A stretch of DNA of 64,000 nt from Thermococcus sp. 21S9 (lineage in GTDB: Archaea; Methanobacteriota_B; Thermococci; Thermococcales; Thermococcaceae). The DNA lies in assembly GCF_012027635.1 (NCBI RefSeq), contig NZ_SNUS01000001.1, forward strand, positions 1,116,001 to 1,180,000. Reading direction: 5' to 3'. Shown piece by piece: positions 21,865-32,166 of the stretch. Below the pieces are notes generated by a model. It saw only the letters and a program-made list of their open reading frames with translations. It did no database searches and was not told the origin of the DNA. Positions within the stretch are counted from its first letter, which is position 1, and every line of letters begins with the position of its first letter. A program made the translations under genes and the position numbers.

Positions 21865-22272
21865 ATGAGGGTCATCCAGACTGCTGGAAAGAGGAAAACC
21901 GCCATAGCGAGGGCCACCATAAGGGAAGGAAAGGGAAGGGTGAGAATCAACCACAAGCCCGTCGAGATAATCGAGCCCGAGATAGCGCGCTTCACCATTA
22001 TGGAACCGCTCATCCTTGCCGGCGAGGAGATTGTCAGCAAGGTTGACATCGACGTCAAGGTCGAGGGCGGAGGCTTCATGGGTCAGGCCGAGGCCGCACG
22101 CGTTGCCATAGCAAGGGCCCTCGTCGAGTGGACCAACGACATGAACCTCAAGGAAAAGTTTATGAAGTACGACAGGACTATGCTCGTTGGCGACAGCAGG
22201 AGGACCGAGCCCCACAAGCCCAACCGCTCGACCAAGGGTCCGAGGGCCAAGAGGCAGAAGTCCTACCGTTGA
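21865..22272 (+). CDS. rps9: 30S ribosomal protein S9 (uS9)
   Basis: The 135-residue uS9 has a C-terminal tail ([11 protein letters not shown]) that reaches P-site tRNA. The N-terminus is [20 protein letters not shown]. The ATG at 21865 after GAGGTGAGAA is chosen; longer versions of this open frame reach into rpl13 and are not real. Confidence 0.96.
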
Positions 22273-22304
22273 TGCCTTCCCTTTAACAATTTGAGGTGTG
22301 GGAA

Positions 22305-22502
22305 ATGATAGTCCCCGTCAGGTGCTTCACCTGCGGAAAGGTGCTGGCAGACAAGTACTACGAGTTCAAGAAGAGGGTTGAGGCCGGGGAAGACCCTGGC
22401 AAGGTCCTCGACGACCTCGGCGTCGAGAGGTACTGCTGCAGGAGAACGCTCCTCAGCCACGTGGAGCTCATCGACCAGGTAATGGTTTATAAAGTCTACT
22501 AA
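22305..22502 (+). CDS. rpoN: RNA polymerase subunit N (Rpo10)
   Basis: The 65-residue zinc-binding RNAP subunit is homologous to RPB10, anchoring subunits D and L. The unusual CX2C...CC site is seen in [11 protein letters not shown] and [10 protein letters not shown]. The ATG at 22305 follows GAGGTGTGG. A TATA box for tRNA-Pro lies in its last codons. Confidence 0.96.
22486..22493 (+). promoter_or_regulatory. TATA box of tRNA-Pro, inside rpoN
   Basis: TTTATAAA ending 26 bases before the tRNA-Pro 5' end, the same distance as for tRNA-Leu(CAG). Confidence 0.6.
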
Positions 22503-22519
22503 AAACCGCAATTCTGGGC

Positions 22520-22597
22520 GGGGCCGTGGGGTAGCTTGGTCTATCCTCCCGGCTTGGGGTGCCGGAGACCCGGGTTCAAATCCCGGCGGCCCCACCA
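22520..22597 (+). tRNA. tRNA-Pro(GGG)
   Basis: A 78-base tRNA. Acceptor GGGGCCG pairs with CGGCCCC, discriminator A, encoded CCA. Anticodon loop TTGGGGT in stem CCGGC/GCCGG; T arm CCGGG-TTCAAAT-CCCGG. It lies between rpoN and rpoK. Confidence 0.95.
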
Positions 22598-22654
22598 ACA
22601 TTCCGTTCACTGAAAAAACCTCTCTTGAAGGTGTGGAAGGAAGGGGTGGTGAGT

Positions 22655-22828
22655 ATGTTCAAGTACACCCGCTTTGAGAAGGCCCGCATCATCGGTGCGA
22701 GGGCTCTGCAAATAGCGATGGGCGCCCCCGTGCTGATAGACGTTCCCGAGGGAATAACTCCCCTTCAAGCTGCCTTGATGGAGTTCGAGAAGGGAATAAT
22801 CCCGCTCACCGTAATAAGGCCGAGCTGA
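22655..22828 (+). CDS. rpoK: RNA polymerase subunit K (Rpo6)
   Basis: The 57-residue subunit is homologous to RPB6/omega and stabilises the largest RNAP subunit. The core [20 protein letters not shown] and the tail [14 protein letters not shown] are typical. The ATG at 22655 follows GGTGGTGAGT. The next gene starts 6 bases after its stop. Confidence 0.95.
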
Positions 22829-22834
22829 TGAACG

Positions 22835-23860
22835 ATGACGGTGATAGAGAACGTAATCGGCAGGGTTGCAGTGCTCAAGGGGGGCAAATACTCCGTTGAG
22901 GTAGACGTCATAACCAGCTCGAGCTTTGGGCGGTTTGCCTCGCCGATAGACGAGAACCCGAGCCTCTACATAGCCGAGGCTCATCGCGCTGTGAGCGAGG
23001 TTGACGAGATAATCGGACCCGAGCTAATAGGCTTCGACGCAACCGAGCAGGAGCTGATAGACAGCTACCTCTGGGAGATAGACGGAACCGAGAACTTCGG
23101 CCACATCGGAGCCAACACCGCGCTGGCGGTTTCTATAGCCACTGCAAAGGCCGCCGCCAGCGAGAAGAACCTTCCCCTCTACAGCTATCTTGGTGGAACT
23201 TTCACCACTGAGTTGCCCGTTCCAATCCTTGAGCTCGGTCGGGGTGAGGAGTTCGACTACTACGTCATGGTTCGCGATTTGATGGAGATTACCGACGTCG
23301 TTGACGCTTTCAACAGCGTCCTTGAGAACGTTGAGGGCAACACCGTTGAGGCCTACTCAAAGGCCACCGAAAAGGCCACCGACGAGCTCGGCCTTGAGGT
23401 TGCCCTCGGGCTCGTCCAGAAGAAGGAGCTCGACATTGAAACCGTCCTCTCGACGGTTGAGGACAACAACGTCGCTTACATAAAGCCCATTGGCGGTGAG
23501 GAGCTCTTCCTTGAGCTCATAGCCGGAACCCACGGGGTCTTCGTTGACGGCGAGTACCTCTTCCGTGAGAAGGACATACTCGACAGGCGCTACTACAACG
23601 CGCTCTCCATAAAACCCATAAACCTGGGCACGCTCACCGACTTGTACAATCTCATAAACGACGCCAAGTCGGAGAGAATCGTTCCAATCCTCTCGGAGGC
23701 TCGCTACGAGTCCTCCGATGAGGCCCTTGCCCACCTCGCGGTGGGCTTCCGTTGCCCGGCGATGGTCCTGGGGAAGGACTCCATCGCCAGGCTGAACGAG
23801 CTGATAAGAATAGCTGAGGATTTGGGTGAAAGGGGCAGGATAATAACCTTTGAAGGATGA
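22835..23860 (+). CDS. Enolase-like protein, probably inactive
   Basis: The 341-residue protein is homologous to enolase but shorter than the usual ~430. Fold markers remain: ENFGHIGANTALAVSIATAK, LPLYSYLGG, LAHLAVGF, LNELIRI. Active-site segments are lost: the N-terminal GASTG loop is absent, the SHRSGET motif reads SEARYESS, and the lysine of the KTG segment is not kept. Catalysis of 2-phosphoglycerate dehydration is therefore unlikely. It sits where enolase is often found in archaea, between rpoK and rps2, and may have a structural or regulatory role. Confidence 0.85.
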   Translation: MTVIENVIGRVAVLKGGKYSVEVDVITSSSFGRFASPIDENPSLYIAEAHRAVSEVDEIIGPELIGFDATEQELIDSYLWEIDGTENFGHIGANTALAVSIATAKAAASEKNLPLYSYLGGTFTTELPVPILELGRGEEFDYYVMVRDLMEITDVVDAFNSVLENVEGNTVEAYSKATEKATDELGLEVALGLVQKKELDIETVLSTVEDNNVAYIKPIGGEELFLELIAGTHGVFVDGEYLFREKDILDRRYYNALSIKPINLGTLTDLYNLINDAKSERIVPILSEARYESSDEALAHLAVGFRCPAMVLGKDSIARLNELIRIAEDLGERGRIITFEG

Positions 23861-23875
23861 GGAGGTGTGAAGGAA

Positions 23876-24481
23876 ATGGAGGAGTATCTCGTTCCACTCG
23901 ACCAGTATCTGGCAGCGGGTGTCCACATCGGCACCCAGCAGAAGACCCAGGACATGAAGAAGTTCATATACCGCGTCAGGCAGGACGGCCTCTACGTCCT
24001 CGACGTCAGGAAGACCGACGAGAGGCTCAAGGTGGCCGGTAAGTTCCTCGCCAAGTTCGACCCGGAAAACATCCTGGCCGTTAGCGTCAGGCTCTACGGC
24101 CAGAAGCCCGTCAAGAAGTTCGGCGAAGTCACCGGTGCCAGGGCCATTCCGGGCCGTTTCCTCCCGGGAACCATGACCAACCCGCAGGTCAAGAACTTCT
24201 TCGAGCCGGACGTCATCATCGTCACCGACCCAAGGGCAGACCACCAGGCCATGAAGGAGGCCGTTGAGATTGGAATACCGATAGTTGCCCTCGTCGACAC
24301 CGAGAACTTCCTGAGCTACGTTGACCTTGCCATTCCGACCAACAACAAGGGTAGAAAGGCCCTCGCGCTCATCTACTGGATACTCGCCAGGGAGATACTC
24401 TACAACAGGAAGGAAATCGAGAGCAGGGAGGACTTCAAGGTTCCCGTTGAGGACTTCGAGATGAGGATTGTGAGGACCTGA
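23876..24481 (+). CDS. rps2: 30S ribosomal protein S2 (uS2)
   Basis: The 201-residue uS2 is the archaeal/eukaryotic Sa-type. Motifs [20 protein letters not shown] and [20 protein letters not shown] are highly conserved. The ATG at 23876 follows GGAGGTG by 8 bases; the GTG at 23867 is part of that site. Confidence 0.96.
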
Positions 24482-24489
24482 GGGGAAGG

Positions 24490-24497
24490 TTTTTAAC
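24490..24497 (+). promoter_or_regulatory. TATA box of tRNA-Leu(TAA)
   Basis: TTTTTAAC 23 bases before the tRNA 5' end in the gap after rps2. Confidence 0.45.
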
Positions 24498-24520
24498 TTT
24501 CCCCCTGTATTTCCCCTCGC

Positions 24521-24608
24521 GCGGGGGTGCCCGAGCCTGGCCAAAGGGGCCGGACTTAAGATCCGGTGCCGCAGGGCTTCGCGGGTTCAAATCCCGTCCC
24601 CCGCACCA
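24521..24608 (+). tRNA. tRNA-Leu(TAA)
   Basis: An 88-base type II tRNA. Acceptor GCGGGGG/CCCCCGC, discriminator A, encoded CCA. Anticodon loop CTTAAGA in stem CCGGA/TCCGG, long variable arm, T arm GCGGG-TTCAAAT-CCCGT. Confidence 0.95.
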
Positions 24609-24611
24609 AAC

Positions 24612-24620
24612 CTTTAAAAG
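24612..24620 (+). promoter_or_regulatory. Probable TATA box for rpl40e
   Basis: CTTTAAAAG between tRNA-Leu and rpl40e, 45 bases before the rpl40e ATG; suggests independent transcription. Confidence 0.45.
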
Positions 24621-24665
24621 TTCCCCGTTGAACGAAACCCGTCAAGGTCATTTGAGGTGGTTGAG

Positions 24666-24821
24666 ATGGCGAGATTCCCCGAGGCTGAAGCAAGAATCTT
24701 CAGGAAGCTTATCTGCATGCGCTGTGGCGCCACCAACCCCTGGGGCGCAAAGAAGTGCAGAAAGTGTGGTTACAAGGGGCTTCGCCCCAAGGCCAGAGAA
24801 CCGCGCGGTGGCGGACGCTGA
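24666..24821 (+). CDS. rpl40e: 50S ribosomal protein L40e (eL40)
   Basis: The 51-residue zinc-ribbon ribosomal protein, free of the ubiquitin fusion found in eukaryotes. Cysteines lie at residues 17, 20, 31 and 34 ([20 protein letters not shown]), followed by a basic tail. The ATG follows GAGGTGGTTGAG. Its stop codon touches the end of the convergent padR gene with no gap. Confidence 0.93.
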
Positions 24822-25151
24822 TTAGGTTTTCTTCAACTTTTTCAGCGTTTCTTCCAGAAACTCTATTCCCTCTTTTAGCAGTTCCTCACCCTTCGGCGTA
24901 AGCTTGTAGTACTTTCTGGCCGGCTTTCCTGTTTCGCTCTCCTGCCATTCTGCCGTAACGTAGCCGTCCTTCTCCAGCTTGTACAGGACGACGTACGAGC
25001 TGACGGTTGCTGGCTCGAAGTCAAAGGCCTCTTTTATGCGCTCCTTGAGCTCGTAGGCGTACATCGGCCTCTCCTCGAGGAGCCGGAGTATGTAGAGCCA
25101 GAGCACCTCCTTCGTAACCTTATTCCTCAACCTCTCTATTGGCGTCGTCAT
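24822..25151 (-). CDS. PadR-family transcriptional regulator
   Basis: The 109-residue winged-helix protein has the PadR pattern: helix LWLYILRLLEERPMYAYELK, recognition region PATVSSYVVLYKLEKDGYV and wing GKPARKYYKLTPKGEELLKE, then a short C-terminal helix for dimerisation. By family knowledge it is a repressor responding to small molecules. It is divergent from the FUN14-like gene with a 106-base gap holding an inverted repeat, so autoregulation and control of the neighbour are plausible. Confidence 0.88.
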   Translation of the reverse strand: MTTPIERLRNKVTKEVLWLYILRLLEERPMYAYELKERIKEAFDFEPATVSSYVVLYKLEKDGYVTAEWQESETGKPARKYYKLTPKGEELLKEGIEFLEETLKKLKKT

Positions 25152-25163
25152 GCTCCCACCTGT

Positions 25164-25178
25164 TTTACGTCTTGTAAA
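25164..25178. promoter_or_regulatory. Inverted repeat, possible PadR operator
   Basis: TTTAC-GTCTT-GTAAA, a perfect 5-base inverted repeat beginning 13 bases upstream of the padR start and overlapping its probable promoter. Family members bind such dyads to repress themselves; the assignment here is inferred. Confidence 0.35.
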
Positions 25179-25218
25179 TATTTTGGAAGCGTGTAATTTA
25201 AGCCTTTTGGGGATAAGG

Positions 25219-25226
25219 TTTTATAC
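25219..25226 (+). promoter_or_regulatory. TATA box for FUN14-like gene
   Basis: TTTTATAC ending 31 bases before the ATG of the FUN14-like gene. Confidence 0.5.
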
Positions 25227-25257
25227 GTTCGCTTCCTAAGGAACCTCGGTGGTGATT

Positions 25258-25557
25258 ATGGATTTCAACGTGAGTGGCATGTTTGGAGATATGGGCGTTG
25301 GAGCCCTCGTTGGATTCATCACCGGATACGCTCTCAAGAAACTCATGAAGCTGGCGATAGCTATAATCGGTGCCTACGTCCTGAGCCTATTCTACCTCCA
25401 GCAGAAGGGAGTAATAACAATAAACACAGACAAGCTATTCAACCTGACCGGTAGTCTTACCCAGCAGGTGGTCAGCCTCAGCCAGAAGGTCGTTGGAATC
25501 CTCCCGGGAACCAGCGCTTTCGTCGCGGGCTTTTACCTCGGTTTCAAAAAAGGATGA
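25258..25557 (+). CDS. FUN14-family membrane protein
   Basis: The 99-residue protein has the FUN14 pattern of Gly-rich hydrophobic segments: GALVGFITGYALKKLMKL, LAIAIIGAYVLSLFYLQQKG and a last AFVAGFYLGFKKG. FUN14 proteins occur in archaea and as mitochondrial outer-membrane proteins; the archaeal function is unknown. The ATG at 25258 follows GGTGGTGATT. It is convergent with the phosphoesterase-fold gene, 4 bases apart. Confidence 0.8.
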   Translation: MDFNVSGMFGDMGVGALVGFITGYALKKLMKLAIAIIGAYVLSLFYLQQKGVITINTDKLFNLTGSLTQQVVSLSQKVVGILPGTSAFVAGFYLGFKKG

Positions 25558-25561
25558 GGAA

Positions 25562-26323
25562 TCAGACCTTCCCGCGGTAGAGAATCTTGATGAGCTCCTC
25601 GGGAAGGCCTTCCTTCTTGATTTTCTCCTCAACGAGCTTCTTCTCTTTCTCGTAGTCGACCTCGATGAACTTGGCGTGGAGCGTGTCAACGTCAACCAGC
25701 GCGAAGGTTGCCTTGTGGTTCTTGCTCGGCGGGTAGCCTATGCTTCCGGGGCAGATGACCCTACCGTACCTCGTCATCGCGTTGACCGGGTACTTCGGCG
25801 ACGCCACGAAGAGTATCTCGTAGTCCTTGACAGGCCTCATTATGGCCTCGTAGTAGCTCGTCGGCTGGTCGGGAAGAACCTGCCCATCGAACGGGTTGAG
25901 CGGGCTTCCGTAGACGCCAAAGATGTCGTTCTTACCTATCTTGTCGACGAGGTAAATCGGCAGGTCCCTGATGAACTCCCTGCCCTCGTGGCCGAGCTTC
26001 TCCCAGGTGTACTTGAGGGCCTTCTTGATGTATGGTGGGTAGTCCAGCTTGTCGATGTAATCAGGCCCCTCCGCGTGCGGGTCGCTGGCGGCTATAACCT
26101 GGTCGAACTCACCGCGGATGACCTTGACGACGTTGTTCCTGATGAGGTCGTCGAGCGTGTCAAGGACCTCACTCGGGTACGGGAAGAGACCGACGACGTT
26201 TCCAAGGACGTAGTACTTCTCAATCTCATAACCTTCCTCCTTGAGAGCCTCAATCTTCTCGAGGGCCTTCGCCAGGGCGGGGAGGTTTCCGTTTATGTTC
26301 GCCAAAACAGCCACGTACACCAT
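25562..26323 (-). CDS. Metallophosphoesterase-fold protein lacking metal ligands
   Basis: The 253-residue protein aligns along its length with calcineurin-like phosphoesterases of the YfcE-like group, but the metal-binding positions are changed. The expected SDIHGN reads ANINGN, LGDVVG reads LGNVVG, RGNxD reads RGEFD, VHGSP reads VYGSP and GHTHxP reads ASPKYP. The framework (FPYPSEV, CPGSIGYP) is kept. It is unlikely to be a hydrolase and may bind a ligand or partner. A TATA-like TTTAAAT on the minus strand near 26374 precedes it. Confidence 0.85.
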   Translation of the reverse strand: MVYVAVLANINGNLPALAKALEKIEALKEEGYEIEKYYVLGNVVGLFPYPSEVLDTLDDLIRNNVVKVIRGEFDQVIAASDPHAEGPDYIDKLDYPPYIKKALKYTWEKLGHEGREFIRDLPIYLVDKIGKNDIFGVYGSPLNPFDGQVLPDQPTSYYEAIMRPVKDYEILFVASPKYPVNAMTRYGRVICPGSIGYPPSKNHKATFALVDVDTLHAKFIEVDYEKEKKLVEEKIKKEGLPEELIKILYRGKV

Positions 26324-26431
26324 GATACCACCTCCGTTTTTTCTTACCTGAAGAAACTAAAAGCTCCAAGGTATTTAAACGTTTCGGGGCATTTGAGTTT
26401 TGATAGAAGGGTATTGAGAGGGCTCAGGGCA

Positions 26432-26518
26432 TCAGAAGGGAAGGCGTCCCTTCTTTTTCTTGGCCCTCTTCTCCCTGTGCATGCTCTCAAGGTAGAGTAA
26501 GAGTGCGTCCTCTATCAT
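26432..26518 (-). CDS. 28-residue microprotein
   Basis: This very short gene encodes MIEDALLLYLESMHREKRAK followed by KKKGRLPF. The support is a perfect ribosome binding site, AAAGGAGGTGAGAGAG, directly before the ATG. The same 16 bases plus ATGATA occur before the other small gene at 30879. The product would be an amphipathic helix with a strongly basic end. Function unknown; it may be a peptide binding a nucleic acid or ribosome. Real translation is inferred. Confidence 0.6.
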   Translation of the reverse strand: MIEDALLLYLESMHREKRAKKKKGRLPF

Positions 26519-26570
26519 CTCTCTCACCTCCTTTGGTTTTTGAATCTTGAGGTATCCTGCTCAATGGAAC

Positions 26571-26852
26571 TCGTTTGTCAAACTTCGCGCTCGGCCTTTG
26601 TGAAAGCTGGCGGAAATGCCCGTTCTTACCAATGGGCAAAAGTCAGTCGTGCATTAGGCGAGTGCAACTTTGACTGGGGGTTTGACACTAAATGAAGCCC
26701 CTTTCGAGTAGTTTCGACTTTGTTTTCGGCGCCTAAAGGGCGCCTTTGAAGAGTGAAACACCGATTGAAGGAGCAAATGGAGGAAACCTGCTTAAAACAA
26801 GGACATGCCCGAGAAAGGCACCCAATTTTCCGCCAGCGCTTGCGCAAGCAGG
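26571..26852. repeat. tRNA-Arg-associated intergenic repeat, copy A
   Basis: A non-coding stretch of about 280 bases between the microprotein gene and the 3' end of tRNA-Arg(CCT). The block 26629-26763 aligns with 36029-36162 of copy B (shared words GTGCA, GCAACTTT, GTTTC, GAAGAGTGAAACAC). GCTGGCGGAAA occurs near 26605 and, inverted, near 26829. A long hairpin lies at 26711-26759. Short open frames in it look like chance. Confidence 0.65.
26711..26759. repeat. Long hairpin unit, copy A
   Basis: Outer stem GTTTC/GAAAC and inner stem GGCGCCT/GGGCGCC around an AAA loop. It corresponds to the hairpins at 36109-36158 and 36293-36339 with compensatory base changes. Confidence 0.7.
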
Positions 26853-26860
26853 GGCTGTGA

Positions 26861-26938
26861 TGGCGGACCGGCGGGGCTTCGAACCCCGGACCTGCGGCTT
26901 AGGAGGCCGCCGCCCTATCCTGGCTAGGCTACCGGTCC
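26861..26938 (-). tRNA. tRNA-Arg(CCT)
   Basis: A 78-base tRNA on the minus strand. Acceptor GGACCGG/CCGGTCC, discriminator G, encoded CCA. Anticodon loop CTCCTAA in stem GCGGC/GCCGC; T arm CCGGG-GTTCGAA-type. It lies between repeat copy A and the Lrp gene. Confidence 0.95.
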
Positions 26939-26967
26939 ACTGCCCGCTATTCCCTCCCGGGGAAGAG

Positions 26968-26975
26968 TATTTAAA
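26968..26975. promoter_or_regulatory. Shared TATA box, tRNA-Arg(CCT) and Lrp gene
   Basis: TATTTAAA lies 30 bases from the tRNA-Arg 5' end (minus strand) and about 25 bases from the Lrp start (plus strand). As the only TATA-like element in the gap it may serve both directions. Confidence 0.45.
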
Positions 26976-26999
26976 GTTTACGGTTTACTTTTGGCGGTG

Positions 27000-27452
27000 A
27001 TGGTGGTGGATGAGCTCGACATCAAGATAATCTCACTCCTCCAGAAAAACGCGAGGCTCTCCTACCGTGAGATAGCGAGGGAGCTGAACGTTGCTGTGGG
27101 AACCGTGTACAACAGGATAAAGAGGCTCGAAGAGGAGGGTGTTATCAAGGGTTACGCTCCGGTTCTTGATTACGAAAAGCTGGGCTTTGGGTTAACGGCG
27201 CTCATCGGAATCAAGGCGCAGGGGCGGAAGATAGCGGAGATAGAAAGAAAGATAGCCGAGAAAACCCGGGCGATGATGGTCTACGACATAACGGGCGAGT
27301 TTGACATCTTCGTCATAGCGAAGTTTAAGGACAGGGAGGACATGAACCGCTTCGTGAAGTGGCTTCTATCCCTGGATGGGGTTGAGAAAACGAACACGAG
27401 CGTGGCCATGCAGGTTGTGAAGGAGGAGCCAAGGTTAGCCCTTGAGGACTAA
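27000..27452 (+). CDS. Lrp/AsnC-family transcriptional regulator
   Basis: The 150-residue protein has an N-terminal winged helix (LDIKIISLLQKNARLSYREI, VAVGTVYNRIKRLEEEGVIK) and a C-terminal RAM ligand domain (MVVYDITGEFDIFVIAKF-like region). Such proteins regulate amino-acid or energy genes; its effector is unknown. The ATG at 27000 would give a leaderless mRNA; GTG codons at 27003 and 27006 are alternatives. It converges with the next gene, overlapping by 18 bases. Confidence 0.88.
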   Translation: MVVDELDIKIISLLQKNARLSYREIARELNVAVGTVYNRIKRLEEEGVIKGYAPVLDYEKLGFGLTALIGIKAQGRKIAEIERKIAEKTRAMMVYDITGEFDIFVIAKFKDREDMNRFVKWLLSLDGVEKTNTSVAMQVVKEEPRLALED

Positions 27453-27764
27453 CACCTCGTCGAGGAAGCGCTTTGCAAAGTCCTCGAAGCTCTCAACGGG
27501 AAGCTCCACTTCCTTTCCGTTGACCTTTCCCCTGAAAACGTAGCGTCTCGCCGTTATCTCCAGGATTTTTTTGAAGTCCGGGCTGGTCTCCACGGTTCTT
27601 TCGAGAACCCTCGTGAACTCGTCGCTGTCAACCTCAACGACAACTCCCTCTATAACCACCCTCTTTCCGCAATCCTCTTCGCTACACTCAAACTTGAAGG
27701 GAACGCCGGGGGCGAACTCTATCGGCAGGCTCAGCCCCTCGGCGTTGTAGATGAACCCCTTCAT
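27435..27764 (-). CDS. Conserved hypothetical protein, 109 residues
   Basis: A soluble, mainly acidic protein with no recognised family. It contains one CX4C-like pair (FKCSEEDCGKR reads FECSEEDCGKR) that might bind metal, in a beta-rich first half, and a helical second half ending FAKRFLDEVLVLKG. It lies one base downstream of the HTH-phosphoribosyltransferase gene on the same strand, so the two are probably co-transcribed. Confidence 0.7.
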   Translation of the reverse strand: MKGFIYNAEGLSLPIEFAPGVPFKFECSEEDCGKRVVIEGVVVEVDSDEFTRVLERTVETSPDFKKILEITARRYVFRGKVNGKEVELPVESFEDFAKRFLDEVLVLKG

Positions 27765-27765
27765 A

Positions 27766-28482
27766 TCAATCCAACCTTATGAGGCTTTCAACCGGGAACT
27801 CGTATTCCTCCTGGAGTTTCTCAACGATGTCGCCGACGCTCACGAGGAAGAACATTCCTATCGGCTTTGCTCCGGCCTGCTTCGTCATCTCGACGAGGGC
27901 CCTCTGGGTTTCTCCGCTCCTTATCACGTCGTCCACTATGAGGACGTTCTCGCCCTTCTTGAGTGCCCACTGGGGAAGGTACAGGGTCATAACGGTTCCC
28001 GAGGCGCTGGGAACGTAGCTGACCTCGTAGAACTTCTCAACTCCGACTTCCTTCTTCTTCTTGGCGTAGACTATGTCCGCTCCGAGTTCCCTCGCTATGT
28101 GGACGCCGAGGGCTATTCCATCGGTTGCGGCAGTGAGCACCTTGTCGACGTCCTTGTCAAGGTACCTCCCGGCCACCTCTTCCGCTATAAGACTCATCAG
28201 GGCCGTGTCGCTGAGCACGGGCATGTTGTCGAAGAAGCCCCTCTCATCGAACTTTATCCTCTTCTTTACCTCCTCCTCAAGGTTTATGTAGGGCAGGAGG
28301 AGCTGGAGCAGTTCCCTCGTCCTCTCGGCGCTTGGAAGGACCTTTCCGCGAACGTACCTGTTCAGAACCGTTATCGGCAGTCCCGTTATTTTCGAGAGTT
28401 CCTCGTAGGTGTAGCTTTTCTTGAGGAGCCTCAACACCCTGATGAGTCTGAGCTTCTCCTGGACGGACTTTAGCTGGCTCAT
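27766..28482 (-). CDS. HTH-phosphoribosyltransferase regulator (GfcR-like)
   Basis: The 238-residue fusion joins a helix-turn-helix (YTYEELSKITGLPITVLNRY, residues 24-43) to a type I phosphoribosyltransferase domain with the PRPP motif VLIVDDVIRSGET near residue 185. It resembles archaeal orotate-phosphoribosyltransferase-like regulators such as haloarchaeal GfcR, which controls sugar metabolism. DNA binding controlled by a phosphoribosyl ligand is inferred. Enzymatic activity is uncertain. Confidence 0.85.
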   Translation of the reverse strand: MSQLKSVQEKLRLIRVLRLLKKSYTYEELSKITGLPITVLNRYVRGKVLPSAERTRELLQLLLPYINLEEEVKKRIKFDERGFFDNMPVLSDTALMSLIAEEVAGRYLDKDVDKVLTAATDGIALGVHIARELGADIVYAKKKKEVGVEKFYEVSYVPSASGTVMTLYLPQWALKKGENVLIVDDVIRSGETQRALVEMTKQAGAKPIGMFFLVSVGDIVEKLQEEYEFPVESLIRLD

Positions 28483-28537
28483 CCTCTCACCTCCGCGTGC
28501 CCGTTGTTTAACAAGAAAATGTATAAATACGTTTCGG

Positions 28538-29023
28538 TCATCCGAGAACCTTACGCCGGTACTCCTCTATGACGTCGCCGTATTCCCTCAGGAGAAACTC
28601 CTTTGTAACCGGTTCCCCATCTGGATGATTGATTCCAGGGCAGAATGAGTCCTCCTTAACGTAAATCTCCATCTTCTTCCCGTGTTTGATGAAGATGAAC
28701 GGGTAGAGTCTGCATGCGAGGGGTCTGTGGGCGTAAATCCTGCACCTCTTTGTTTCAGGGTCGAGGAAAACGCACGCCCCGTCGAAGGGCCTCTTCTTTA
28801 TGGCGTAGCCAAGGAACTTGTCCCCCCGATAGAAAAGTTTCTCATAATCCACGAACTCCCACGTGTTGTATCCAAGCTCTTCGATTCTCGTTATGTCCTC
28901 ATCTCTTAGGGGAATTTCGAGTTCTTCACAACACTTTCCGCATTCCTCGAGGCATTTAAATTTGAAGGAAGGGTCGGACTCGACCTCGAGGGTTTCGAGG
29001 TCAATAGTCGCGACCCACCTCAA
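28538..29023 (-). CDS. YkgJ-family cysteine cluster protein
   Basis: The 161-residue protein has the YkgJ cysteine pattern: CLEECGKCC near residue 25, CVFLDPETKRCRIYAHRPLA followed by CRLYP, and FCPG. The family is thought to bind zinc or Fe-S; the role is unknown. A TTG start at 29023 preceded by GGGGGTGA is preferred; the frame runs on to 29050 but would overlap the upstream gene. It is the last gene of an SRP54-RAM-YkgJ run. Confidence 0.85.
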   Translation of the reverse strand: MRWVATIDLETLEVESDPSFKFKCLEECGKCCEELEIPLRDEDITRIEELGYNTWEFVDYEKLFYRGDKFLGYAIKKRPFDGACVFLDPETKRCRIYAHRPLACRLYPFIFIKHGKKMEIYVKEDSFCPGINHPDGEPVTKEFLLREYGDVIEEYRRKVLG

Positions 29024-29027
29024 GGCT

Positions 29028-29267
29028 TCACCCCCGGTAGGTGCTCGCAATCAGCGTTTCGGTCATCTCAATCTCCGGAATCTTTCTGAGGACTTCGTCG
29101 TGGAACTTGTCAAGGTCCTCTATCCTTGGAACCTCCACGCGGAGTATTATGTCGTATTCGCCGTAAACCCTGTAGGCCTCCTTAACGCGTGGGTCCTTCT
29201 TGAGCTCCTCGTAGACCTTCTCCTCGTTTCCGGGCTTTACGACCACCAACACGAAGGCCTCAATCAT
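29028..29267 (-). CDS. Stand-alone RAM (Lrp effector-binding) domain protein
   Basis: The 79-residue protein consists only of the alpha/beta ligand-binding domain of Lrp/AsnC regulators ([33 protein letters not shown]), without a DNA-binding part. Such proteins form oligomers that bind amino acids. It overlaps the SRP54 stop by 4 bases and its stop supplies the ribosome binding site of the next gene. Confidence 0.88.
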
Positions 29268-30610
29268 ACCCCGAACCCCCCTAAGTTGAACTTCTTGGCC
29301 ATCTTGGCCAGCTTTCTCTTATTCATGCTCTTGAACATCTTCTTCATTTGGTTGTACTGGTTTAAAAGCTCTCTGACTTCAGACGTGCTCGTTCCCGAAC
29401 CCCGGGCAATCCTCTTTATGCGGGAGTAGTTGATTATCTCCGGGTGCTCAAGCTCCTCCTCCGTCATCGAGTCCATTATTACGCGATACCTCTTAAGCTT
29501 CTCCTCCCCGACCTTAATCGCGTCATCTGGAAGCGAGTAGCCAAGGCCTGGAATCATCTGGAGTATCTGCTTGAGCGGGCCCATCTTCTGCATCGCCTCG
29601 AGCTGGGCGTACATGTCCTTGAGGTTGAATTTGCCCTTGAGGAACTTCTCAACGTCTTCCTCGGTGAATTCCTGCTGTTTCTGAAGCTCTTCAATCTTCT
29701 CAAGGAGTCCCTGGATGTCTCCAAGGCCGAGGAGCCTTGAAACGAAGCGCTTGGGGTCGAAGGGCTCCAAATCGTCTATCCTCTCGCCGACACCTATGAA
29801 CTTAATCGGCGCCCCCGTTGCGGCAACGGCGGAAAGCGCTCCACCGCCCTTGGCCGAACCGTCGAGCTTCGTGACGATTATCGAGCCTATCGGAGTGGCT
29901 TCTTTGAAGGCCAGCGCCTGGTTGTAGGCCTGCTGGCCGATGGTTCCGTCTATGACGAGTATGACCTCGTGGGGCTTTATGGCCTCGCTTATCTGCCTCA
30001 TCTCCTCGATGAGGCCCTTCTCCTCCTTGTGCCTTCCGGCGGAGTCCACGATTATGACGTCAACTCCTTTCTCGCGGAAGTGCTCAACCCCTTCCCTTGC
30101 GAGCTTGACCGCGTCCTTCTCGTTGGGGTCGCCGAAGACCTCTATGCCGTAGGGGTCGAGGAGCTGTCTGAGCTGGTGGTACGCTCCGGGACGCCAGGTA
30201 TCGGAACATACGACACCGACCTTGTAGCCCCTCTTCTGAAGGTGCCTCGCCAGCTTAGCCACGCTCGTCGTCTTTCCTGAACCCTGAATACCGACGGTGA
30301 GCAAAACGGTCGGCTTTTCCTTTATCTCGAGGGGCTTCGCCTCGGTTCCTAGGAACTTCGTGAGCTCTTCGTAGACTATCTTGATGATGTGCTCCTTCCT
30401 GCTGACGCCCGCCGGCGGTTCCTCTTCGAGGGCCCTCTTCTGTATCGTTTTCGTGAGCTGAAGAACGAGCTTGACGTTGACGTCCGCCTGCAGGAGTGCC
30501 CTCTGGATGTCCCTAACTACCTCCTTTATCGTCGCCTCGTCAACGGTTCCGGAGCGCGCGAGCTTCCTGAGGGCGTTGTTAAGGGCCTTTCCAAGTTTTT
30601 CTAACGCCAT
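29264..30610 (-). CDS. srp54: Signal recognition particle GTPase SRP54
   Basis: The 448-residue Ffh/SRP54 protein carries an N domain, a GTPase domain with GIQGSGKTT (about residues 104-112), DTWRPGA, DSAGRH and [10 protein letters not shown], and a Met-rich M domain (about 295-430) that binds signal peptides and 7S RNA. The ATG at 30610 follows GGTGGTGAG; upstream in-frame codons to 30745 are non-coding. A TATA box (TTTATAAA) lies at 30641-30648. It would work with SecY and uL23 encoded earlier. Confidence 0.96.
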
Positions 30611-30640
30611 CTCACCACCGTTACTATGAGGGCTGGGGAG

Positions 30641-30648
30641 TTTATAAA
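30641..30648 (-). promoter_or_regulatory. TATA box for the SRP54 operon
   Basis: TTTATAAA, 30 bases from the SRP54 ATG on the minus strand. Confidence 0.6.
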
Positions 30649-30669
30649 CGGTTGGGTGGGGAAGCTCTG

Positions 30670-30677
30670 TATAAATG
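30670..30677 (+). promoter_or_regulatory. TATA box for the candidate C/D RNA
   Basis: TATAAATG, ending 19 bases before the candidate C box; there is no protein gene at the matching distance on this strand. Confidence 0.4.
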
Positions 30678-30696
30678 CACGCATTTTTCAAAAACA

Positions 30697-30760
30697 GCGA
30701 TGATATGTCTCTTTTCTTTGAACAAAAGTGTTCATTGAGGCTCAAAATCCGTCCTGAGGC
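30697..30760 (+). ncRNA. Candidate C/D box guide RNA
   Basis: Between divergent SRP54 and a microprotein gene. A C box (GCGATGA, 30697-30703) follows a TATA box at normal distance, and a D box (CTGA, 30754-30757) is followed within 4 bases by a T tract. The 61-base C-to-D length suits archaeal C/D RNAs. Internal D' and C' boxes are poor (TTGA at 30718, CATTGA at 30733), and no terminal stem is obvious. Guide targets were not determined. Tentative. Confidence 0.35.
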
Positions 30761-30820
30761 ATTTTTTGAGCGAGTATAGCGCTGAACACGGCATTCTTGC
30801 TGAAATCGGGGCTGAAAACC

Positions 30821-30828
30821 TTTTTAAA
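30821..30828 (+). promoter_or_regulatory. TATA box for the 34-residue microprotein gene
   Basis: TTTTTAAA, 50 bases before the microprotein ATG. Confidence 0.45.
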
Positions 30829-30878
30829 CCGAAAAACCCGTAGTAGATACTGGAGAGAATGAAAAGGAGGTGAGAGAG

Positions 30879-30983
30879 ATGATATGGCCGATAGCCATGT
30901 ACGAGTACATGTTCACGCGTGAGAGGGAGAAGAGAAAGAAGCCCATACCCGAGGAGCTCGAGTACGTCGAGATGCTCCAGTGA
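30879..30983 (+). CDS. 34-residue microprotein
   Basis: This small gene encodes MIWPIAMYEYMFTREREKRK then KPIPEELEYVEMLQ. It has its own TATA box and the ribosome binding site AAAGGAGGTGAGAGAG, identical to that of the 28-residue gene at 26432-26518. The two peptides share a short hydrophobic start, an aromatic/Met stretch and a REKR-K basic cluster. No function is known. The next gene has its own TATA box at 30986. Confidence 0.65.
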   Translation: MIWPIAMYEYMFTREREKRKKPIPEELEYVEMLQ

Positions 30984-31022
30984 AGTATTTAAGCGGTCTT
31001 TTCTATTTCCCCCGGTGGTGCT

Positions 31023-31877
31023 ATGAGGATTCATCACGAGTGCGTTGCCTGCGCGATAAACCAGTGTCAGAAAATCGTCGAGATGAGCTTAACCGATGAA
31101 AATTCCCGCAGGGATGCGATGTTGTTTTCGCTCAAGCGCGCCTCCGAGCTGTTCTCAAAGGACTCAATTCCTGCAGTCGTTGGGGGATTGCTCTTCCTCG
31201 ACCTCTACGAGTTCATTGGGAACGACGACCCTTTCAGGGACTACAAGCGCCTTTCAAACGAGATGGCAAAGGGACTTGTGGGCCACTTTGAGGATTCCGA
31301 CCTTAAAACCGCACTAAAGCTCGCGATAGCCGGAAACGTCGTGGACTTTTCAACGGGCTACAACCCTGAGAAGCTTGAGGAGGACATCAGAAAGGTTCTC
31401 GAGGAGAGCCTTCGTATAGACCACAGCGATGAGCTCTTCACGAGACTGAAGCGCGCTGGGGTTCTTCTCTACCTCGTTGACAACTGCGGTGAGATATACT
31501 TCGACAGGCTATTCCTCGGGAAGCTGAGAGAGGAGTTTCCGAACCTTAAAATAATCGTTGCGGGTAAGGCCGGCCCGATAATAAACGATGCAACCGTTGA
31601 AGACCTCCTTGAGGCAGGCTTCGAAGGAATTGCTGAGGTCATCTCAACGGGCTCGAGACTGCCGGGCACTCCAATCGAGCACGTTTCAGAGGAGTTCCTT
31701 GAGGTTTTCCGCTCGGCGGACGTCGTCATTGCTAAGGGGCAGGCCAACTTCGAGACCCTGAGTGAACTTCGGGACTCCAGAATCTTCTTTCTGCTCAAGG
31801 CCAAATGCCCGGCAATCGCGAGGGAAATCGGGGTCCCAATAGGCTCCCTCCTCTGCTTTAACCCTGCTCTTCGTTGA
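31023..31877 (+). CDS. DUF89 (ARMT1-like) metal-dependent phosphatase
   Basis: The 284-residue protein belongs to DUF89. The N-terminal CVACAINQC motif and the active-site LYLVDNCGEIYFDRLF (about residues 150-165), AGKAGPIINDATVEDL and VIAKGQANFETL segments are intact. By family knowledge these are metal-dependent phosphatases that remove damaged sugar phosphates. The start is the ATG at 31023; a TATA box TATTTAAG lies at 30986-30993. Confidence 0.88.
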   Translation: MRIHHECVACAINQCQKIVEMSLTDENSRRDAMLFSLKRASELFSKDSIPAVVGGLLFLDLYEFIGNDDPFRDYKRLSNEMAKGLVGHFEDSDLKTALKLAIAGNVVDFSTGYNPEKLEEDIRKVLEESLRIDHSDELFTRLKRAGVLLYLVDNCGEIYFDRLFLGKLREEFPNLKIIVAGKAGPIINDATVEDLLEAGFEGIAEVISTGSRLPGTPIEHVSEEFLEVFRSADVVIAKGQANFETLSELRDSRIFFLLKAKCPAIAREIGVPIGSLLCFNPALR

Positions 31878-31956
31878 TTGTCGATATTATTTTTAACGAA
31901 TGTCTATCAGAAAGCCTTTTATACTTTGAAGTGGTACATAGTAACGGTGATAGGCT

Positions 31957-32166
31957 ATGGCAACCGTTATTAAGCGTGACCCCTCAAAGTTTTTGAGAGA
32001 GATGAAGACCCACTACGGGGACGTATGGCGCATGCCGTCAAGCAGGTACCTTCTTCAGCCCGATTTCGTTGTAGTTGACCCCAAAACCGGAAAGAAGACC
32101 AAGGTCAGCTTCGTGTCCCTTGACGATGGAGAAGTGGTTGGAGTCGTTTACGACGACCTCGGATGA
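31957..32166 (+). CDS. Small hypothetical protein, 69 residues
   Basis: A basic then acidic small protein (TVIKRDPSKFLREMKTHYGD) with a beta-rich C-terminal half (FVVVDPKTGKKTKVSFVSLD). No family is recognised. It has a TATA-like TTTTATAC at 31917 and GGTGATAGGCT before the ATG, so it is probably a real single gene. Confidence 0.6.
   Translation: MATVIKRDPSKFLREMKTHYGDVWRMPSSRYLLQPDFVVVDPKTGKKTKVSFVSLDDGEVVGVVYDDLG

Follow-up and report, generated by a model that had tools for sequence, protein, structure and literature searches.

Positions 25562-26323 of the window (the whole stretch of 64,000 nucleotides of Thermococcus sp. 21S9 DNA that was analysed) hold a gene, here called pME (pseudo-metallophosphoesterase), whose product is probably a lineage-specific pseudo-metallophosphoesterase, one that uses its remodelled face for metal-free binding, the partner most likely being a protein. 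None of the eight metal-ligand positions is kept in any of the 69 intact orthologs from Thermococcaceae, whereas all eight are kept in all 27 canonical copies compared. As the same eight positions are conserved throughout one group and lost throughout the other, chance is not a reasonable explanation of the pattern in these sequences. The features discussed below are listed in Table 1.

Table 1. Features of the pME locus, in window coordinates.
Feature	Coordinates	Strand	Basis or remark
pME gene, 253 aa	25562-26323	-	intact frame, orthologs 1NNW and 2GJU, fold match
Promoter-like BRE/TATA stretch CCGAAACGTTTAAATAC	26371-26387	-	read from sequence
Ribosome site GGAGGTGG	26328-26335	-	downstream of CCGAAACGTTTAAATAC, read from sequence
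Motif I, ANINGN (residues 8-13)	26285-26302	-	in place of D-x-H-(G/S)-N; ligands D and H gone
Motif II, LGNVVG (residues 40-45)	26189-26206	-	in place of canonical GD(L/F)VG; Asp gone
Motif III, RGEFD (residues 70-74)	26102-26116	-	in place of (R)GNHD; Asn and His gone
Motif IV, VYGSP (residues 137-141)	25901-25915	-	in place of H(G/A)SP; His gone
Motif V, ASPKYP (residues 174-179)	25787-25804	-	in place of GHTH; two His gone
Conserved microprotein ORF, 31 codons	26432-26527	-	108 nt upstream of pME; association only
FUN14-family small protein, convergent neighbour	25258-25557	+	Pfam PF04930, synteny

Gene, fold and distribution

The pME gene runs on the minus strand from an ATG at 26323 to a stop at 25562, and its 253 codons are free of internal stops. 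A TATA-like motif lies upstream of pME in 47 of 69 copies, against 26% of shuffled upstream sequences, and a loose ribosome-site pattern is found upstream in 69/69 copies, a count made without a shuffle control. Among RNA elements, window positions 22000-32000 contain three tRNAs at the gathering score and nothing else.

By sequence, the assignment of pME to the calcineurin-like phosphoesterase family is weak: Pfam Metallophos (PF00149) scores 20.4 bits, under its cut-off of 21.5, PF12850 gives no match at E values up to 1, and an NCBIfam search returned nothing meaningful. The calcineurin-like phosphoesterase fold is a firm prediction from structure alignment of an AlphaFold model of only moderate confidence, which was built from 26 orthologs and served for fold matching only (mean pLDDT 63.7 for the best model, with residues 122-167 below 50, and 36.6-38.7 for the other four). 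With VIA-align, the top matches of this model are 1NNW (Z 27.0) and 2GJU (Z 26.4), followed by the streptococcal enzyme SapH (3QFN, Z 18.6) and 3RQZ (Z 17.5); below these, Z is at most 13.4 among the best 50 matches listed. The similarity to SapH thus exceeds the general phosphoesterase background seen in the matches listed, and the phosphoesterase-fold matches cover residues 1-252 of 253. In sequence searches of solved structures, pME matches 1NNW (E 1.5e-128) and 2GJU (E 2.6e-126), and the sole further match at E 0.01 is the metallophosphoesterase 3RQZ (E 1.4e-5). Neither pME nor its profile matches SapH at E <= 0.01, where 1NNW, 2GJU and 3RQZ are the only structures found.

pME is found in 73 of 94 Thermococcaceae genomes and in all six sampled genera of the family. 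Of these copies 69 are intact, three are frame-shifted (L097, L099 and L101, in genomes G069, G089 and G015), and one is partial, seemingly because it is cut by a contig end. The frame shifts may be either real or sequencing errors. Outside the family, 21 genomes of the phylum complete the set of 115, and none of them has a pME match at E 1e-8, while members of PF12850 occur in 113/115. In a separate motif-seeded scan, 21 named loci were recovered, every one assigned to Thermococcus, Thermococcales, Thermococcaceae or Thermococci.

Within the family, 74 genomes of good quality reach at least 90% completeness with contamination of 5% or less, and 14 of these have no pME. A quick tree was made from neighbouring proteins of 73 genomes (59 with pME and 14 without), leaving out loci that lack PadR or FUN14 beside pME. 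On this tree, the distribution of pME requires six changes, of which four are forced by well-supported branches. No remnant of pME was found within 1.5 kb of FUN14 in the 15 pME-less genomes searched. The gene is not essential, since it is absent from those 14 good genomes and frame-shifted in three others; as several lineages do without it, it is dispensable, yet it is probably useful and is kept by most.

Loss of the metal ligands and subsequent constraint

Copies of pME were taken from 72 Thermococcaceae loci, of which 69 are full and intact and three are split; the alignment has 70 rows for the 69 orthologs, as the window's own gene is present twice. The canonical comparison set (n=27) consists of 20 copies selected from the same family plus seven of 12 loci from other families of the class, the other five being short, interrupted, partly matching or distant. 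Relative to these canonical copies, the replacements in pME are D9 to N, H11 to N or A, D42 to N, N72 to E, K, Q or R, H73 to F, Y or L, H138 to Y, H175 to S, and H177 to K or R. N9, N42, Y138 and S175 are invariant across the 69 orthologs and position 177 is basic throughout, while position 11 holds either N or A, and drift is seen at 72 and 73. The framework around the lost ligands is retained in the alignment, including N13, G41, G45, R70, G71, D74, GSP, PG and G196. Near motif V, pME also departs from four further residues that never vary in the canonical copies of the same family: N173 is C in all rows but one, Q179 is mostly F or Y, R181 mostly P and D182 mostly G.

A sequence-only reading of this DNA had described a phosphoesterase fold in an intact frame, with five altered motifs. 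The stop-free minus-strand frame and the alignment of the model to 1NNW, 2GJU, SapH and 3RQZ bear out the first two points, and ANINGN, LGNVVG, RGEFD, VYGSP and ASPKYP are all present with their ligands replaced. That reading had also proposed an alignment of orthologs, in which the substitutions turn out to be fixed in 69/69 intact sequences; orthologs with intact ligands, which it had named as contrary to its view, were sought among the same 69 and none was found.

Strong purifying selection on pME is seen in a median dN/dS of 0.053 (range 0.010-0.108) in 56 pairs with 0.1 < dS < 1, drawn from the sequences with a length of exactly 253 residues (22 of 69). When entropy is profiled over 49 sequences below 95% identity, the mean is 0.37 bits for the six former active-site loops and 0.66 for the rest of the protein, and 0/252 circular shifts of the profile are as low; since the analyst picked the loops by where the motifs lie, and shifts next to each other are correlated, this is a description, not a strict probability. 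Part of this conservation can come from folding, through glycines and prolines.

A tree of 47 rows, 20 of them pME and 27 canonical, places pME in a single clade with full support (100/100); the tree program warned of long branches meeting among the rows from other families. The pME stem, on the pME side of the midpoint root, has 2.34 changes per site, compared with a median end branch of 0.1 in the whole tree. Because the ligands are widely conserved in canonical relatives, the direction of change was probably from canonical to metal-less. The history of pME looks like a single functional change followed by constraint. The fixed substitutions, low dN/dS and single clade together argue for the earlier suggestion of a pseudoenzyme under selection; that pME may be a ligand-binding or regulatory subunit was a further suggestion of the sequence-only reading.

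The upstream microprotein and the gene neighbourhood

Relatives of the small frame upstream of pME, 21 of them aligned, occupy the corresponding position in other genomes. The product is about 30 amino acids long, with the consensus xMIEDALLLYLxSxxRExxxKKKK, that is, an EDALLLYL-like core and a lysine-rich tail, and E6, D7, A8 and Y12 are invariant. A profile built from the 21 aligned copies gives strong matches (E <= 8.1e-8) in 34 of 94 family genomes and weak ones (E 0.03 to 0.08) in seven more. Among the weak matches, that in G053 lies upstream of pME, and that in G045, a pME-less genome, lies within a long frame and is taken for chance. All 34 strong matches are upstream of pME on the same strand, by comparison of coordinates by hand, and 33 of them are 57 to 175 nt away. 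The exception is G076, where 969 nt separate the two, with transposase-like frames between them as judged by eye (L071 4077-4927). Strong matches thus occur in 34/73 genomes with pME versus 0/21 without (Fisher p 1.9e-5, uncorrected for kinship).

Over the first 14 codons, the pooled pN/pS of the microprotein is 0.39 in frame, and the two shifted frames give 1.05 and 2.03; the in-frame value is inflated by one row (L043) that is one codon out of register. The microprotein behaves as a real small gene. It is either a partner of pME or merely a co-inherited neighbour, as one deletion can remove adjacent genes, and it is the best lead toward a pME partner. A more specific proposal is a long shot: that pME and the microprotein form a pair, with the remodelled metal-free face of pME binding the lysine-tailed peptide as its dedicated ligand. 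If true, this pair would be the archaeal equivalent, in two components, of VPS29 and other scaffolds with the phosphoesterase fold.

On the other side of pME, the order PadR regulator, FUN14 protein and then pME in opposite orientation, convergent with FUN14, is seen in 59 of 70 loci. A MATE-like flippase (Pfam score 21.6 bits, below the cut-off of 24.9) lies between FUN14 and pME in 33 of these 59 loci and is absent in the other 26, including the window's own. In genus g3, taken to be Pyrococcus because its protein L098 has by eye the same sequence as 2GJU, pME is beside the flippase and a helicase in seven of eight loci and beside the flippase and FUN14 in the eighth. In the g3 genome G012 (L094 4995-6168), FUN14 and pME are head to head, whereas they are tail to tail elsewhere. 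FUN14 was found in 20/20 genomes tested, and as it stays in all 15 of these that lack pME, a functional tie between the two is not supported. A tie to the flippase is likewise not supported, given its absence from 26/59 FUN14 loci and its independent gain and loss; by eye, it still adjoins FUN14 in four of the seven pME-less loci with frames listed. Thus, with FUN14 persisting without pME and the flippase and pME coming and going independently, synteny yields no partner for pME.

Two other genes of the window were noted in passing. A zinc-ribbon-like protein of 54 aa at 24657-24821 (+ strand; PF13240 at 23.6 bits, under the cut-off of 25) is probably ribosomal protein L40e; this label, like PF1291, rps2, Lrp, GfcR, YkgJ and SRP54, is an informal gene name and not the outcome of a search. 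Among ribosomal-protein genes, an enolase-like protein of 341 aa at 22835-23860 (+ strand) passes the cut-offs for both Enolase_N (87.9 bits) and Enolase_C (30.9 bits, over the last third only), and a full enolase is encoded elsewhere in the same genome (439.7 bits). The SGAS loop, DEGGF, SIEDP and GDD, which we take to be enolase motifs, are present in the full enolase and by eye missing from the 341-aa protein, which is possibly a second degenerate enzyme homolog in the window.

Candidate functions and comparison with known systems

The favoured scenario begins with a copy of a SapH-like phosphoesterase that would have lost all of its metal ligands, probably on the Thermococcaceae stem, since pME is present in all six sampled genera. 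The metal-less copy would then have been held by selection. We infer from the replaced ligands that pME is catalytically inactive, that is, it would no longer hydrolyse phosphoesters via a dinuclear metal centre, and that N9, N42, R70, D74, Y138, S175 and K/R177 may make up the remodelled face, now a metal-free binding surface. The partner would most likely be a protein, as for VPS29 and the eukaryotic DNA polymerase B-subunits, because both of these inactive relatives, as described, belong to complexes as subunits. Loss of ligands is not automatic proof that no metal is bound, as VPS29 coordinates metal with Asn replacing Asp (PMC2674652).

The main rival, considered unlikely, is a small-molecule sensor, in which a metal-free pocket would bind a nucleotide or phosphate compound (e.g. 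Ap4A or a cyclic nucleotide) and report to another protein. The nearest named enzyme by fold, SapH, cuts Ap4A, the former active-site loops are conserved, and R70, D74 and a basic residue at 177 would suit such a pocket; however, the canonical invariants N173, Q179, R181 and D182 near motif V are gone as well, and there is no output domain within the 253 residues. It is quite improbable that pME is still an enzyme with a metal-independent mechanism or a relocated site: the invariant polar residues N9, N42, Y138 and S175 and the basic residue at 177 do occupy old ligand positions, but every metal ligand of the active relatives is gone, and the conserved neighbours, mostly convergent or unrelated, point to no pathway. 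We know of no metal-independent member of the calcineurin-like phosphoesterase fold. That pME is a dead copy being lost is very improbable: the presence changes on the quick tree and the three frame-shifted copies would fit, but a full intact frame in 69/73 genomes with pME and four invariant replacement residues speak against it, and the low dN/dS contradicts decay and, with the fixed substitutions, rules out recent decay.

The binding-protein reading builds on a protein and fold already known as structures. 1NNW from Pyrococcus furiosus and 2GJU (PH1004) from P. horikoshii are crystallised pME orthologs, deposited as 'hypothetical', and are 72% and 71% identical to pME in structural alignment. 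All eight ligands are likewise gone from both, which differ from pME in having A for N at 11, K for E at 72 and Y for F at 73. In a literature search of partial coverage, no paper on pME or the 1NNW or 2GJU protein was found, nor any report of the complete, fixed ligand loss in this family. The metallophosphoesterases TK0547 (PMC4473059) and TK0574 (PMC12016516) could not be tied to pME from the accessible portions of those sources. Since ortholog crystal structures exist, the question of pME is directly testable, and the case cautions against automatic annotation of this gene as a 'metallophosphoesterase'.

Among active relatives, the canonical Thermococcaceae paralog (L002; C1:70324-70992 in the window's own genome) is 31% identical to pME over most of its length, including the C-terminal segment. 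Unlike pME, it keeps all eight ligands, passes the cut-off for Pfam Metallophos_2 (89.7 bits) and matches SapH (3QFM) by sequence (E 1.3e-12). The closest non-orthologous folds are SapH/Spr1479 (3QFM/3QFN), a streptococcal asymmetric Ap4A hydrolase, and 3RQZ. SapH is titled an active enzyme and 3RQZ a metallophosphoesterase, whereas pME is without any ligand of its canonical relatives; the SapH-type catalytic metal ligands are absent from pME in a comparison made via these relatives, not SapH's own structure.

The pseudo-phosphoesterase kind is also already known, from VPS29 and the polymerase B-subunits. VPS29, described as the scaffold for VPS35 in retromer (PMC9636581), carries Asn in place of the bridging Asp and a Phe in its catalytic site, as does pME, but still coordinates metal (PMC2674652), whereas pME has lost all ligands including every His. 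VPS29 is not among the best 50 fold matches listed for the pME model. In the eukaryotic DNA polymerase B-subunits, none of the catalytic residues of DP1 is left (PMC4996933), and one of this inactive kind, the human Pol delta regulatory subunit (3E0J), is a fold match to pME (Z 11.8) that stands among many active phosphatases in the list. These subunits are polymerase components with an OB domain in addition, whereas pME is a single domain, as the span of its fold matches leaves no room for a second. pME is a clean archaeal case in which a dinuclear metal site has been wholly lost while the fold and specific replacement residues are retained, and in which an enzyme fold has probably been turned into a binding protein. 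Should a partner be found, pME would offer a simple parallel, in prokaryotes, to the way in which retromer and eukaryotic DNA polymerases use scaffolds with the phosphoesterase fold.
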